Origin: Isoptericola halalbus | GTDB lineage: Bacteria; Actinomycetota; Actinomycetes; Actinomycetales; Cellulomonadaceae | DNA: 32,095 nucleotides | NCBI GenBank assembly: GCA_009663185.1 | Contig: VJZX01000003.1 | Span: 198,329 to 230,423, forward strand | Reading direction: 5' to 3' | In this document: piece after piece, positions 137 through 8,125 of the stretch | How positions within the stretch are numbered: the stretch's first letter is position 1 | Layout of the letters: every line of letters starts with the position of its first letter | Made by a program: the position numbers and the translations under genes | Notes under the pieces: generated by a model | What the model was told of the DNA's origin: nothing | The model's database searches: none | Seen by the model: the letters and a program-made list of their open reading frames with translations, nothing else

Positions 137-591
137 CCTGCACCGAAGCTCCGCCACGCGTCGGAACCATGACCGTGGTGGGCACGTGGACGGTGCGCTC
201 GGTCGAGGAGGTCTCGGCCGTCCGGGCGGCCCTGGCGTCCCAGCTCCCGTGCGACTGTGCTGCGGCTCACTCCGGCGCGACGGACGACACCCTGAGCGGC
301 ATCCAGCGCATCATCCTCGTCGCGAGCGAGCTCGTGTCGAACGCGCTGCTGCACGCCGGTGGACCCGCGACCGTGCGGCTGCTGTGCGACGGGCGGTCCG
401 CGCTGCTCGACGTCGTCGACCGCAGCCCTGACATGCCGCCCGTCGTCGCCACCGACCGTGCGCTCGGGCAGGGCGGGTTCGGCCTGCACCTGGCACGACG
501 CGCGGCGCACACGGTGGGCTGGTACAGCACGTCGAGCGGCGAGAAGCACGTGTGGGCGCGGTTTACCGCCCCGGCCCTCGCGCCGAGGTAG
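133..591 (+). CDS. RsbW-like ATP-binding protein (HATPase_c_2, anti-sigma/serine kinase type)
   Basis: Small single-domain protein of the GHKL ATPase superfamily, as in bacterial anti-sigma-factor kinases. Visible motifs are the N-box (ELVSNALLHAGG), a DVVDRSP segment in the place of the G1 box, and the glycine-rich GQGGFGLHLARRAA (G2 box). Such proteins typically bind a sigma factor or phosphorylate an anti-anti-sigma factor, but no partner gene is present, so the target is unknown. I prefer GTG 133, which has AGGGA nine bases upstream and overlaps a short leader ORF. GTG 70 and ATG 169 are alternatives, and the frame is open to the window edge. The stop codon TAG lies inside the first copy of the 20-bp repeat, and the last 29 bases overlap the 3' end of rhaB on the other strand. 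It is probably unrelated in function to the sugar genes that follow. Confidence 0.8.
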   Translation: MTCTEAPPRVGTMTVVGTWTVRSVEEVSAVRAALASQLPCDCAAAHSGATDDTLSGIQRIILVASELVSNALLHAGGPATVRLLCDGRSALLDVVDRSPDMPPVVATDRALGQGGFGLHLARRAAHTVGWYSTSSGEKHVWARFTAPALAPR

Positions 592-2263
592 AACCGCGCT
601 CGCCGAGGTAGAACGGGATTCGGCGAGGTAGAACGTCTCCGCGTTCTACCTCGCCGGTTCTGGGGCTACCTGACCGAGCGCGGTTCTCCCTCGGCGGGTA
701 GGTCACCAGCTCGGTGCTCGCGACGACGACGTCGCGCAACGCGTCGAGACCACCCTCCAGCGCACCCACCGCCCGCGCCTGGACCAGGACGTTCCCGAGC
801 GCGGCGGCCTCGACCGGCCCCGCGACGACGGGCAGCCCGGTCGCCTCGGCCGTGAGCCGGCACAGCAGCTCGTTGCGCACCCCACCCCCGGCCACGTGCA
901 CCGCGGTCACCTCGACCCCCGCCAGCTCGCCCGCCTGGGACACGACGCGCGCGTATGCCGCCGCGAGGCTGTCGAGAACCGCCCGGGCCAACGCGGGGCG
1001 GGTGACCGGCACCTCCTGCCCCGCCGCCTCGGCCGCCGCGCAGAACCGGCGCGGCATGTCCCCCGGCGCGAGGAACGCGTCGTCGTCCAGGTCGATGACG
1101 CACCGCCCTCCCGACTCGTCGGCCGCGGCGGTGAGCAGCGCGACGATGTCCTCGGGATCGCCCGCACGCTCCCACTCGCGCAGGCACTCGTCGAGCACCC
1201 ACAGCCCCATGACGTTGCGCAGGTACCGCACGGTCCCGTCGAGCCCGAGCTCGTTCGTGAAGTTCGCCCCGCGGCTCGCCTCGCTGAGCACGGGCGCGTC
1301 GAGCTCTAGACCGACGAGCGACCACGTGCCGCTCGACACGTACGCCGCGACGCCGTCGGGCACGCGCTCGCCCGCAGGCCGCGCCCCGAGCGGGATCGCG
1401 GCGACGGCGGAGGCAGTGTCGTGCGACGCGACCGCGACGACGGGGACGTCACCGAGCCCGGTCTCGTCGGCCAGCGCAGGCAGCAGCGGCCCGACGACGG
1501 TGCCCGGCTCGACGAGGTCGGCCAGGACGTCCTTGAGCCCGGCCAGGGCCGGGTGCTCGGAACCGAGCCGGCCGAGCAGCTCGCTCGACCAGCCCCGGGC
1601 CCTCACGTCAAGCAGCCCGGTCGTGGACGCGTTCGTCACCTCGGCCACCCGCCGCCCGGTGAGCCAGCACGTGATCAGGTCGGGGATGAGCAGCAGCCCG
1701 CGCGCCGACGCCCACGCGGCCTCGCCCGAGCCCGCAACGAGCTGGAACTCCGTGGTGAACGGCAGGTGCTGCAGCCCGTTGACGGCATAGTGCTCGCGAG
1801 GGGAGACCCGCTCGTAGACACGCTCGGCCGCCCCGCGGATGCGCGGGTCGCGGTAGCTGCGGGGCGCTCCCAGGAGCACGCCGTCGGCGTCGAGCAGCCC
1901 ATAGTCCACGGCCCACGAGTCGACGCCGATCCCCGCGATGCGGGCTCCGCGACGCTCGGCCTCGCGGCCGGCCTCGCGCAGCCCGGCGACGATCCCGCGC
2001 CACAGCCCCAGGACGTCCCACCGCAGGTCGACGACGTCCCCGCCAGCACGCGGGACCGTGATCGGGCCGTTCGGGAACCGCCCGGTCTCGACAAGCTCGA
2101 CGCGCGGCGCCGTCGCCCCGCCCAGGGCGGCGACGCCGTCGTCGTGTACGCCGTCGTGCAGCACCCCGAGCATGACGCGGCCGCTCGTGGCGCCGAGGTC
2201 GACCGCGACGAACGCGGAGAGGACCTCGGCGCCGCGGGCATGGGGCACAGCCGACGCGCTCAT
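563..2263 (-). CDS. rhaB: L-rhamnulokinase (FGGY family), C-terminally extended
   Basis: Phosphorylates L-rhamnulose to L-rhamnulose 1-phosphate in the cytoplasm. FGGY-kinase features are the N-terminal phosphate loop VDLGATSGR (about residues 21-29), the substrate segment GIGVDSWAVDYGLL, the NGLQHLPFTTEFQL segment, VASHDTASA, YVSSGTWSLVG and the C-terminal ATP-site segment HVAGGGVRNELLCR. The ATG at 2263 overlaps the rhaEW stop as ATGA, so the two are translationally coupled at the end of the rhamnose operon. The kinase fold ends near VTYPPR at residue 525. The codon after it (688-686) is GAG in a repeat copy where the same position is TAG elsewhere. The frame therefore continues for 41 low-complexity residues encoded by the palindrome and stops at TAA 565-563, inside the convergent ATPase gene. 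The tail is probably a neutral read-through rather than a functional domain. Confidence 0.93.
   Translation of the reverse strand: MSASAVPHARGAEVLSAFVAVDLGATSGRVMLGVLHDGVHDDGVAALGGATAPRVELVETGRFPNGPITVPRAGGDVVDLRWDVLGLWRGIVAGLREAGREAERRGARIAGIGVDSWAVDYGLLDADGVLLGAPRSYRDPRIRGAAERVYERVSPREHYAVNGLQHLPFTTEFQLVAGSGEAAWASARGLLLIPDLITCWLTGRRVAEVTNASTTGLLDVRARGWSSELLGRLGSEHPALAGLKDVLADLVEPGTVVGPLLPALADETGLGDVPVVAVASHDTASAVAAIPLGARPAGERVPDGVAAYVSSGTWSLVGLELDAPVLSEASRGANFTNELGLDGTVRYLRNVMGLWVLDECLREWERAGDPEDIVALLTAAADESGGRCVIDLDDDAFLAPGDMPRRFCAAAEAAGQEVPVTRPALARAVLDSLAAAYARVVSQAGELAGVEVTAVHVAGGGVRNELLCRLTAEATGLPVVAGPVEAAALGNVLVQARAVGALEGGLDALRDVVVASTELVTYPPRENRARSGSPRTGEVERGDVLPRRIPFYLGERGSTSARGPGR
581..696. 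repeat. 116-bp palindrome of six repeat copies at 20-bp spacing
   Basis: Three forward copies of CGCCGAGGTAGAAC start at 581, 601 and 621 (the third reads CGGCGAGGTAGAAC). Three inverted copies start at 643, 663 (degenerate, about 10/14) and 683. Each forward copy pairs with an inverted copy around one centre at 638.5, so the whole segment is one long imperfect palindrome. The outer arms 581-602 and 675-696 match at 21 of 22 positions. The element sits between convergent genes and supplies the stop codon of the ATPase. It resembles a REP/BIME-type extragenic element rather than a CRISPR array, since it has no spacers and its orientation is symmetrical. Confidence 0.85.
621..656. terminator. 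core hairpin of the palindrome, likely bidirectional terminator
   Basis: Bases 621-635 and 642-656 form a perfect 15-bp stem with the 6-base loop TCTCCG. The hairpin lies between two convergent genes, where a bidirectional terminator is expected. Neither side has a clear T-tract, so termination efficiency is uncertain. On the minus strand the hairpin lies inside the extended rhaB reading frame. Confidence 0.55.
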
Positions 2264-7088: not shown

Positions 7089-8102
7089 ATGCCCAGCACC
7101 ACGGCTCGACGCCGCGCCTCCATCTCCGACGTGGCGCGCCTCGCCGGCGTGAGCGTCGGCACCGTGTCCAACGTGCTCAACCGGCCCGACCGGGTCTCGG
7201 ACGCGACGCGCGAGCGCGTCGAGTCGGCCATCGCACAGCTCTCGTTCGTCCCCAACGGCTCGGCCCGCCACCTGCGCGTCGGCACGATCACGACCGTCGG
7301 CGCCATCGTCCTCGACATCGCGAACCCGTTCTTCACCGACCTGGCACGCGGCATCGAGGCGCGCCTCGACGAGGACGACTACACGCTCATGATCGCCAGC
7401 TCCGACGAGGACCCCGAGCGCGAGGCGCGCTACCTGCGCCTGTACGAGCAGCACGGTGTGCAGGGCATCATGGTCGTCCCGGCGACCGACGACGTCGACC
7501 ACCTCGTCACGCTCGCCGAGCGTGGCGTCAGGATCGTCCTGCTCGACCGCCCCTCCCCCGTCGAGTCGCTCTCCTCGGTCGCCGTCGACGACGTCCACGG
7601 CGGCGCGCTCGCCGTGCGGCACCTGCTCGGGCAGGGCCACGAGCGCATCGCCTTCCTCAACGGCCCGCACACGATCCGCCAGTGCGCCGACCGCTGGGCC
7701 GGCGCCGTGCAGGCGGTCGAGGCCGCAGGGCTCGACCCGGCCGTCACGCTCGAGGAGACCACGGTCAGCCTCAACGCCGACGGGGGCGACGCCGGGACGC
7801 GCAGCCTCGTCGACCGCACCGACCGGCCGACGTCGGTCTTCTGCGTGAACGACCTCGTTGCGCTCGGCTCGCTGCGCACCCTGCGCCGCGCGGGCCTGTC
7901 CGTGCCCGACGACGTCGCGGTGGTCGGGTACGACGACGTCACGTTCGCGGCCGAGCTCGCGACCCCGCTGACCTCGGTCCGGCAGCCGACGCACGAGCTC
8001 GGCGTGCGGGCGGCCGACCTCCTGCTGCGCGGGGACGACGGCGAGCCCGAGCACGTCGTCTTCCAGCCGACGCTCGTCGTCCGCGAGTCATCCGCGAGGT
8101 AG
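7089..8102 (+). CDS. LacI-family transcriptional regulator of the rhamnose/RG-I genes
   Basis: A 337-residue regulator. An N-terminal LacI helix-turn-helix (ISDVARLAGVSVGTVSNVLN, about residues 12-31) is followed by a periplasmic-binding-protein-like effector domain (VGAIVLDIANPFFTDLARGIE through VVGYDDVTFAAELATPLTSVRQP). The ATG at 7089 has GAGGAAGGGA upstream; a GTG at 7014 opens the frame earlier but is unlikely. It is divergent from rhaM, with two operator-like palindromes between them, so it probably represses the rhamnose operon and itself. The same palindrome at the RG-I operon promoter suggests a wider regulon. The inducer is unknown; rhamnose or a rhamnose-containing disaccharide is likely. 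Its stop TAG is part of the 20-bp repeat found at the rhaB end. Confidence 0.93.
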   Translation: MPSTTARRRASISDVARLAGVSVGTVSNVLNRPDRVSDATRERVESAIAQLSFVPNGSARHLRVGTITTVGAIVLDIANPFFTDLARGIEARLDEDDYTLMIASSDEDPEREARYLRLYEQHGVQGIMVVPATDDVDHLVTLAERGVRIVLLDRPSPVESLSSVAVDDVHGGALAVRHLLGQGHERIAFLNGPHTIRQCADRWAGAVQAVEAAGLDPAVTLEETTVSLNADGGDAGTRSLVDRTDRPTSVFCVNDLVALGSLRTLRRAGLSVPDDVAVVGYDDVTFAAELATPLTSVRQPTHELGVRAADLLLRGDDGEPEHVVFQPTLVVRESSAR

Positions 8103-8125
8103 AAACGCGCCCGCCGAGGCAGAAC
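8092..8125 (+). repeat. two more copies of the 20-bp-spaced AGGTAGAAC repeat
   Basis: CGCGAGGTAGAAAC at about 8093 and CGCCGAGGCAGAAC at 8112-8125 match the family at 581-696, with GAGG cores 20 bases apart (8096 and 8116). The first copy supplies the TAG stop of the lacI gene in the same frame as in the 591 gene. The second copy carries CAG instead of TAG. No inverted partner is present here. Confidence 0.7.

Follow-up and report, generated by a model that had tools for sequence, protein, structure and literature searches.

The palindromic repeat at positions 581–696 of the window, by which we mean the whole stretch of 32,095 nucleotides from Isoptericola halalbus that was analyzed, is a local case of a wider phenomenon. 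Arrays of short, phased repeats stand mostly behind genes, point in the direction of transcription, keep their core and a pitch near 20 bp, and use different cores or core extensions in different genomes; in one pair of genomes, arrays with one core occupy the places that arrays with another core hold at homologous gene ends. Tentatively, we read these arrays as phased sites for a putative factor at the ends of transcription units, which they would most likely mark and insulate.

Two arrays in the window

Sequence reading and a repeat search both resolved 581–696 into three direct and three inverted copies at a 20-bp pitch, symmetric about 638.5 (Table 1). The preliminary description, which had reported six copies at this spacing, was right about pitch and register, while the exact 11-bp core CGAGGTAGAAC is present at only four of the six register positions, the units at 663 and 683 having decayed. 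The direct copies at 581 and 601 are exactly CGCCGAGGTAGAAC, and that at 621 is CGGCGAGGTAGAAC, which agrees with CGCCGAGGTAGAAC at 13 of 14 bases. The inverted copies at 643 and 683 each match GTTCTACCTCGGCG at 13 of 14 bases, the latter with its minus-strand TAG changed to GAG, and the copy at 663 is badly decayed (9/14 against GTTCTACCTCGGCG), with a CTACCTG that is still in register and retains six of the seven core bases. The common center and the perfect 15-bp stem of the earlier account were borne out, as was the return of the 20-bp spacing near 8093–8125, where one-mismatch copies are located at 8095 and 8115. In total, the window holds seven matches with at most one mismatch compared to 0.32 expected, a number that was reached in none of 100 shuffles.

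Table 1. Coordinates of the arrays and adjoining genes in the window
Feature	Position	Strand	Details
Forward arm	581–634	+	Three 20-bp units; cores CGAGGTAGAAC at 584, 604, 624
TAG in first core	589–591	+	Stop of HATPase-domain gene (start 70 or 169)
Inverted arm	643–696	-	Cores 643–653 (exact), 666–672 (CTACCTG, decayed), 683–693 (one mismatch)
Perfect 15-bp stem	621–656	.	621–635 with 642–656; 6-nt center (636–641)
FGGY sugar-kinase gene	563–2248	-	Frame crosses array, ends at 563
Second array	8092–8125	+	Two one-mismatch units 20 bp apart
TAG of first unit, second array	8100–8102	+	Stop of LacI-family gene ending 8102

The palindrome consists of two polar arms that face each other, each at the end of one of two convergent genes. 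This account of one arm per convergent gene is incomplete, since both arms also occur at single gene ends: in the genome G004, the opposite arm is also present in seven of the ten sense-array gaps between co-directional genes that span 100 bp or more. The FGGY kinase frame, presumably that of a rhamnulokinase, reaches the TAG position (686–688) of the outermost inverted unit, meets GAG there, and continues to 563. A blastn search of positions 560–720 against plasmid and phage collections returned no match at E 0.01, and a plasmid or phage origin was rejected on that ground. The three-copy pattern matched three viral contigs, two of which carry GAGGTAG repeats at 10 bp; in the third (L342, 47% G+C), the copies are 21 bp apart and, judged by eye, probably coding.

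Placement, pitch, and core conservation at gene ends

In the genome of the window (G000; 4.10 Mb in 110 contigs), where the preliminary description had proposed a search for further copies, there are 117 exact copies of CGAGGTAGAAC (59 and 58 by strand), against none on either strand for the reversed pattern. Among the places listed, the copies lie mostly at gene ends and follow a spacing rule, excluding both an absence of other copies and a scatter inside genes with no fixed spacing.

Genes were called with our own codon-likelihood script rather than a standard gene finder, and those of G017 with a model trained on G001. Of 264 gaps that were convergent, or co-directional and at least 100 bp long, 36 had an array; of 416 that were divergent, or co-directional and shorter, 5 did (G001, G004, and G017, with the G004 stretches picked around known arrays; Fisher p = 3e-11). 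TAG was the stop codon of 21 of the 40 genes that end in an array and of 75 of the 619 that do not, and most gene ends had no array. For G000, 49 loci and the window supplied an anatomy set of 69 entries, each an array arm or a single copy; 47 lay behind the end of a same-strand gene, nine opposite to co-directional genes (some being the second arm of a facing pair), three between divergent genes, and ten in called genes. The ten comprise the window's own two entries, where array and kinase frame overlap, six single copies, and the multi-copy loci L069 and L072. In G004, 29 of 178 copies were inside called genes, which we attribute at least partly to called frames that run into arrays. Among the 47 G000 arrays behind a gene end, the first core sits at −8, its TAG being the stop codon, in 15 and at +3/+4 in another 15; that arrays start at stop codons had gone unmentioned in the preliminary description.

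Two sets of G000 loci are described here in their own right. At L005, L024, and L068, sense arrays lie between divergent genes, 14–19 nt upstream of a called start codon. At L069 (contig C27, 38681–38796), six copies (three exact and three one-mismatch cores) with a 21-bp pitch lie within a same-strand called gene; translated in a frame free of TAG, this array could give a repeat of seven residues.

Neighboring arms of opposite orientation faced each other in 37 cases and stood back to back in none (G000, G004, and G001), while the small samples of GTCAG arrays described below gave three facing and two back to back (G013, G010, and G002). The pitch was 20 bp in 89 of 107 cases in G000 (21 in 14 more) and in 99 of 104 in G004, and was 19 or 21 in other genera. 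Center gaps of 12–14 nt were seen in 6 of 17 facing pairs in G000 and 8 of 17 in G004, so that the distance from core to core stays near 20 across the center.

Core conservation was scored in units with an exact core on either side, the two cores being 40 bp from each other, which avoids selecting units by their own core. The 7-bp core was perfect in 50 of 52 such units in G004, 21 of 22 in G001, 20 of 24 in G017, 12 of 13 in G013, and 14 of 21 in G000, and the rest had one mismatch. Agreement of spacers with their neighbors was 0.31–0.58 at ten of eleven positions in G004 (0.77 at the other) and 0.26–0.67 over most of the spacer in G000; spacers were much less diverged in G001 (0.64–0.82) and G017 (0.58–0.75, with one position at 0.81), and recent duplication is likely in these two genomes. 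In G013, the outer units resembled each other more closely than they did the middle unit, and alternating spacers in G017 arrays form a 40-bp higher-order repeat.

Divergent spacers with hardly any change in length imply that core and pitch are under selection, or else that a copying process writes the two anew. For G000 and G004, the sequence comparison suggests selection. The main rival, which is a serious one and which we consider possible if somewhat doubtful, is a satellite under molecular drive: tandem duplication together with an unspecified copying process would fill permissive 3′ space up to the stop codon, with no service to the host, and the different cores would be successive waves. 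Runs of identical units and the low spacer divergence in G017 and G001 fit this rival, whereas the core and pitch maintained amid widely differing spacers in G004 and G000 speak against it, as does the strict polarity in the GAGGTAG genomes.

Dialects, spread, and homologous gene ends

Each of the other 17 genomes of the genus holds two to nine exact copies of CGAGGTAGAAC, and those relatives that bear arrays have other extensions or other cores instead. The three bases 3′ of GAGGTAG are AAC in G000, T(T/C/G)(C/G) in G004, CGC in G001, GCA in G016 and G017, GAC in G119, and AGC plus AAC in G199. A genome-specific extension is a tendency and not a rule, because extensions are mixed in G008 and G012 and a minority of G000 arrays carry CGC or TGC.

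A motif-free scan of the distances between repeated intergenic 8-mers gave sharp peaks at 20, 40, and 60 bp with GAGGTAG in G001 and G004, peaks at 20 and 40 with AGTCAGCG in G013 and with G[AG]GTCAG in G002, and weaker peaks with GCGAGTCAGCGC in G010 (62 and 44 pairs, and 42 at 12 bp). Pairs of GNGTCAG numbered 300 in G013, 246 in G010, and 143 in G002, compared to 0–4 in the other 15 genomes of the genus. Numbers elsewhere in the family were lower, the highest seen being 24 (G220), and in one family member (G126) matches to the reversed pattern outnumbered the true ones. Separately, TCATGCCCACAA and overlapping 12-mers at L304–L308 of G002 are the most repeated 12-mers of the intergenic DNA sampled, and this group is possibly a second repeat family in that genome.

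Two GAGGTAG motifs at 19–22 bp were found in 104 of 221 genomes of the family, with at least 20 pairs in 33 (by our count), a maximum of 298 in G001, and at most two per strand in the reversed-pattern control. In a sample of 396 genomes from the order, searched at a pitch of 19–21, 60 had a match. Clear cases outside the family were G361 (28), G087 (6), and G427 (6), the arrays of which are compact palindromes, mostly with two units per arm, and several of which have decayed cores. Loci L360–L368 of G361, from another family of the order, are near-identical compact palindromes with a 19-bp pitch that resemble a dispersed element.

Presence is patchy within the genus, where 11 of the 18 genomes have GAGGTAG arrays (at least 17 pairs), three have GTCAG arrays, and four have neither. 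De novo scans of 100 kb each of G009 and G005 revealed no 20-bp arrays; a scan of 200 kb of G014 gave a weak result, its listing being swamped by N runs, and 100 kb of G003 yielded a 20-bp signal (94 pairs) whose leading 8-mers recur at intervals of 10 bp and seem unrelated.

A FastTree reconstruction from three protein fragments in 17 genomes, some fragments being missing, placed G002 as sister of G017 (support 1.000), followed by G016 (1.000). Both G016 and G017 carry GAGGTAG-GCA arrays, and G002 carries GTCAG arrays. We aligned 145 kb of G017 and G002 at 85.2% identity, a region that includes eight of ten G017 arms. For six of these eight, from four gene-end regions, an arm of the same orientation lies at the homologous place in G002, with GAGGTAG cores in G017 and G[ACG]GTCAG cores in G002. 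One of the remaining two has visibly decayed GTCAG-like units in G002 and the other no counterpart, and one of seven G002 arms has no counterpart in G017. The G017 stretch contains no GTCAG array and the G002 stretch no GGTAG array. At one of these gene ends, the adjacent hairpin is recognizably the same and the repeat alone differs.

We further compared the ends of genes that, from reading the sequences, we take to be pspA, livF, pgi, and ddl. Inspected by eye, the livF end has arrays placed after the stop codon and before a hairpin in 13 of the 17 genomes. The hairpin is present with no array in G003, G005 (where its sequence is different), and G009, an array without such a hairpin is present in G007, and some genomes have further units beyond the hairpin. 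At the pspA end, 8 of 17 genomes have units, and hairpins were recognized by eye at the other nine; at L232, L242, and L245 (G001, G012, and G009), a different long inverted repeat, with CGCTGTGGG or TGCTGTGGG at one end, lies where other species have arrays. At the pgi-like end (L327–L333), GAGATAGAGA units form near-perfect stems with paired differences in G005, G006, and G011, and G003 has GAGGCAG-type units, so that G003 and G005 do carry related variants there. At the ddl end, GAGGTAG pairs were confined to the nearest Isoptericola MAG among 80 named loci, as was the array among the 23 ends inspected.

Several of these patterns fit the satellite rival, namely the patchy presence within one genus, core changes between close relatives, the near-identical copies in G361, and livF arrays that lie between stop and hairpin and are absent in some relatives. 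It stays a serious rival by virtue of this patchiness together with recent duplication and fast replacement. On the other side, no Y1 transposase was matched in any of the 18 genus genomes, and positions 560–720 of the window lacked a blastn match in the plasmid and phage collections.

Hairpins, a candidate factor, and known systems

Single units are non-palindromic. Their minimum free energies, compared with the mean of 20 mononucleotide shuffles each, were −4.60 versus −3.89 in G000 (116 units), −4.16 versus −4.02 in G004 (117), −5.56 versus −5.69 in G001 (31), −5.11 versus −4.33 in G017 (31), and −2.17 versus −2.56 in G361 (15). The preliminary description had offered a small mobile palindrome as one origin of the phasing. 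As the unit this is not supported, given such folding, the frequent single-orientation arrays of G000, and the lack of a match to the transposase usual for such repeats. Spacers matched between opposite arms at 0.61 versus 0.59 between loci in G000 (10 pairs), 0.60 versus 0.56 in G004 (22), and 0.58 versus 0.56 in G017 (5). In G361 the arms matched at 0.97 (3 pairs), which says little because spacers of different loci also match there at 0.86.

Evidence that the arrays stand in for terminator hairpins is mixed. A separate hairpin was found at 5 of 22 convergent ends with arrays and 24 of 38 without in G004 (regions counted from both sides), at 5 of 9 co-directional ends with arrays and 40 of 97 without in the same genome, and at 4 of 8 convergent ends with arrays and 10 of 19 without in G001; folding minima at ends with and without arrays differed in G004 and not in G001, in small samples. 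The idea that arrays replace terminator hairpins, which came from the pspA end, is weakened by the livF ends and by these counts. Ordinary selection for hairpins is likewise weakened as the whole story, since spacers hardly co-vary in G000 and G004, and we regard the stem chiefly as a by-product of cores that face each other, perfectible in some lineages.

The arrays might instead act in RNA, either as 3′ UTR sites that are transcribed and bound by an RNA-binding protein or through inverted arms that form long terminator or processing hairpins, a reading we consider rather improbable. As single-stranded RNA, 581–696 folds at −94.7 kcal/mol (z = −11.0), and the livF arrays between stop codon and hairpin, the stem-keeping paired differences between G006 and G011 at the pgi-like end, and the co-directional G004 ends with both arms also fit an RNA role. 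Set against this are the many single-arm arrays of G000, opposite-arm spacers hardly more alike than those of different loci (G000, G004, and G017), units whose folding hardly exceeds that of shuffles, if at all, and a near-exact two-turn pitch that is easier to explain on DNA. Within the window, there was no Rfam match at the gathering score.

A sequence-specific factor that reads stacked sites is the best explanation for polarity, abutment to stop codons, the two-turn pitch, the preserved cores, and the dialects, and our preferred reading is consistent with the protein-binding array that the preliminary description had considered. We infer that the factor is a protein and that its target is DNA rather than RNA. 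Each 20-bp unit would be one predicted site, CGAGGTAG with a short 3′ extension, for a sequence-specific protein, and sites would be stacked at a pitch of two DNA turns, often straight after stop codons and oriented with transcription. The arrays would point to the center of the 3′ intergenic region, often the site of a terminator-like hairpin or of a facing arm, and the bound array would mark and insulate the end of the transcription unit by helping RNA polymerase to stop or by blocking read-through. The recognized core would differ between genomes as dialects, with homologous arrays following the dialect of their own genome. We propose the role in termination or insulation mainly because of location. 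Points against this preferred reading are the patchy presence in the genus, the lack of arrays at most gene ends, the low spacer divergence in G001 and G017, the mixed hairpin counts, the livF hairpin that occurs with and without arrays, the three G000 arrays between divergent genes, the 3:2 polarity of GTCAG arrays, and the paired-difference stems at the pgi-like end. The fuller scenario, in which a candidate factor stacks on stop-codon arrays and stops or insulates transcription, and in which a change in the core that it recognizes would be followed, soon in evolutionary terms, by replacement of arrays at homologous gene ends throughout the genome with arrays of the new dialect, seems unlikely.

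Were the function confirmed, these actinobacteria would have a factor-recognized marking of gene ends unlike Rho-dependent or intrinsic termination, and the switch of core between G017 and G002 would offer a natural experiment on a protein co-evolving with many of its own sites. Were the arrays a satellite, they would be a bacterial repeat that is strongly targeted by position and quickly replaced. Under either reading, annotation of gene ends is affected in these genomes, because stop codons come from arrays and a frame that continues through an array can acquire a false C-terminus.

Among the papers listed in literature searches by sequence and by topic, none describes these arrays in its title or abstract. 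Like intrinsic terminators, the arrays lie at the 3′ ends of transcription units and have facing arms that can fold; unlike them, they include many single arms, may co-exist with separate hairpins, and have a genome-wide core. Pairing of GAGGU with the anti-Shine-Dalgarno sequence was rejected by reasoning, since the GTCAG dialects are without GAGGU.

As described in the available part of PMC3733652, the GTAG-tagged, RAYT-associated REP/BIME elements share with the arrays many extragenic copies mostly 3′ of genes and pairs of opposite orientation. The GTAG string that tags REP elements there (PMC3733652) is also inside the GAGGTAG core and is absent from the GTCAG dialects of G002, G010, and G013; the word ‘Actinobacteria’ does not occur in that part of the source. 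The arrays differ in being non-palindromic direct repeats with a 19–21 bp pitch that abut stop codons. In agreement with the preliminary description, which could not assign the repeat to a known REP family, they fit no REP definition tested. They do lie mainly downstream of genes in convergent or unidirectional settings (36/264 versus 5/416 gaps), and their units are not the 20–40 bp palindromes of REPs, folding little or no better than shuffles. The Y1 (IS200-like) REP-associated transposase PF01797 was found in 0 of 18 genus genomes and in 5 of 14 control genomes, and we rejected a RAYT/REP origin based on this result and the non-palindromic units.

DNA uptake sequences are dispersed single copies, many of them in coding regions, whereas the arrays are phased tandem copies, mostly 3′ intergenic and tied to gene ends and to the direction of transcription. 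In the Neisseriaceae, uptake sequences have a conserved core with lineage variants, one dialect dominating most genomes, according to the part of PMC3630211 available, and the arrays resemble them in combining a conserved core with species dialects and in the dominance of one dialect in most genomes. Uptake-sequence dialects are the nearest evolutionary analogy. This likeness of dialects around a conserved core (PMC3630211, in part) favors a further alternative, that the arrays are a signal for DNA uptake or chromosome organization, in the form of uptake-type dialects or nucleoid-protein binding arrays, parked in 3′ regions. We regard that alternative as very unlikely, the copies being tandem and gene-polar rather than dispersed, with an orientation that follows the gene.

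The eukaryotic rDNA Sal box/TTF-I and Reb1 systems are polar roadblock terminator arrays, in which repeated protein sites lie downstream of genes. The arrays are similar to these roadblock terminators in being polar repeats 3′ of genes, and are unlike them in standing at many genes and in a bacterium.
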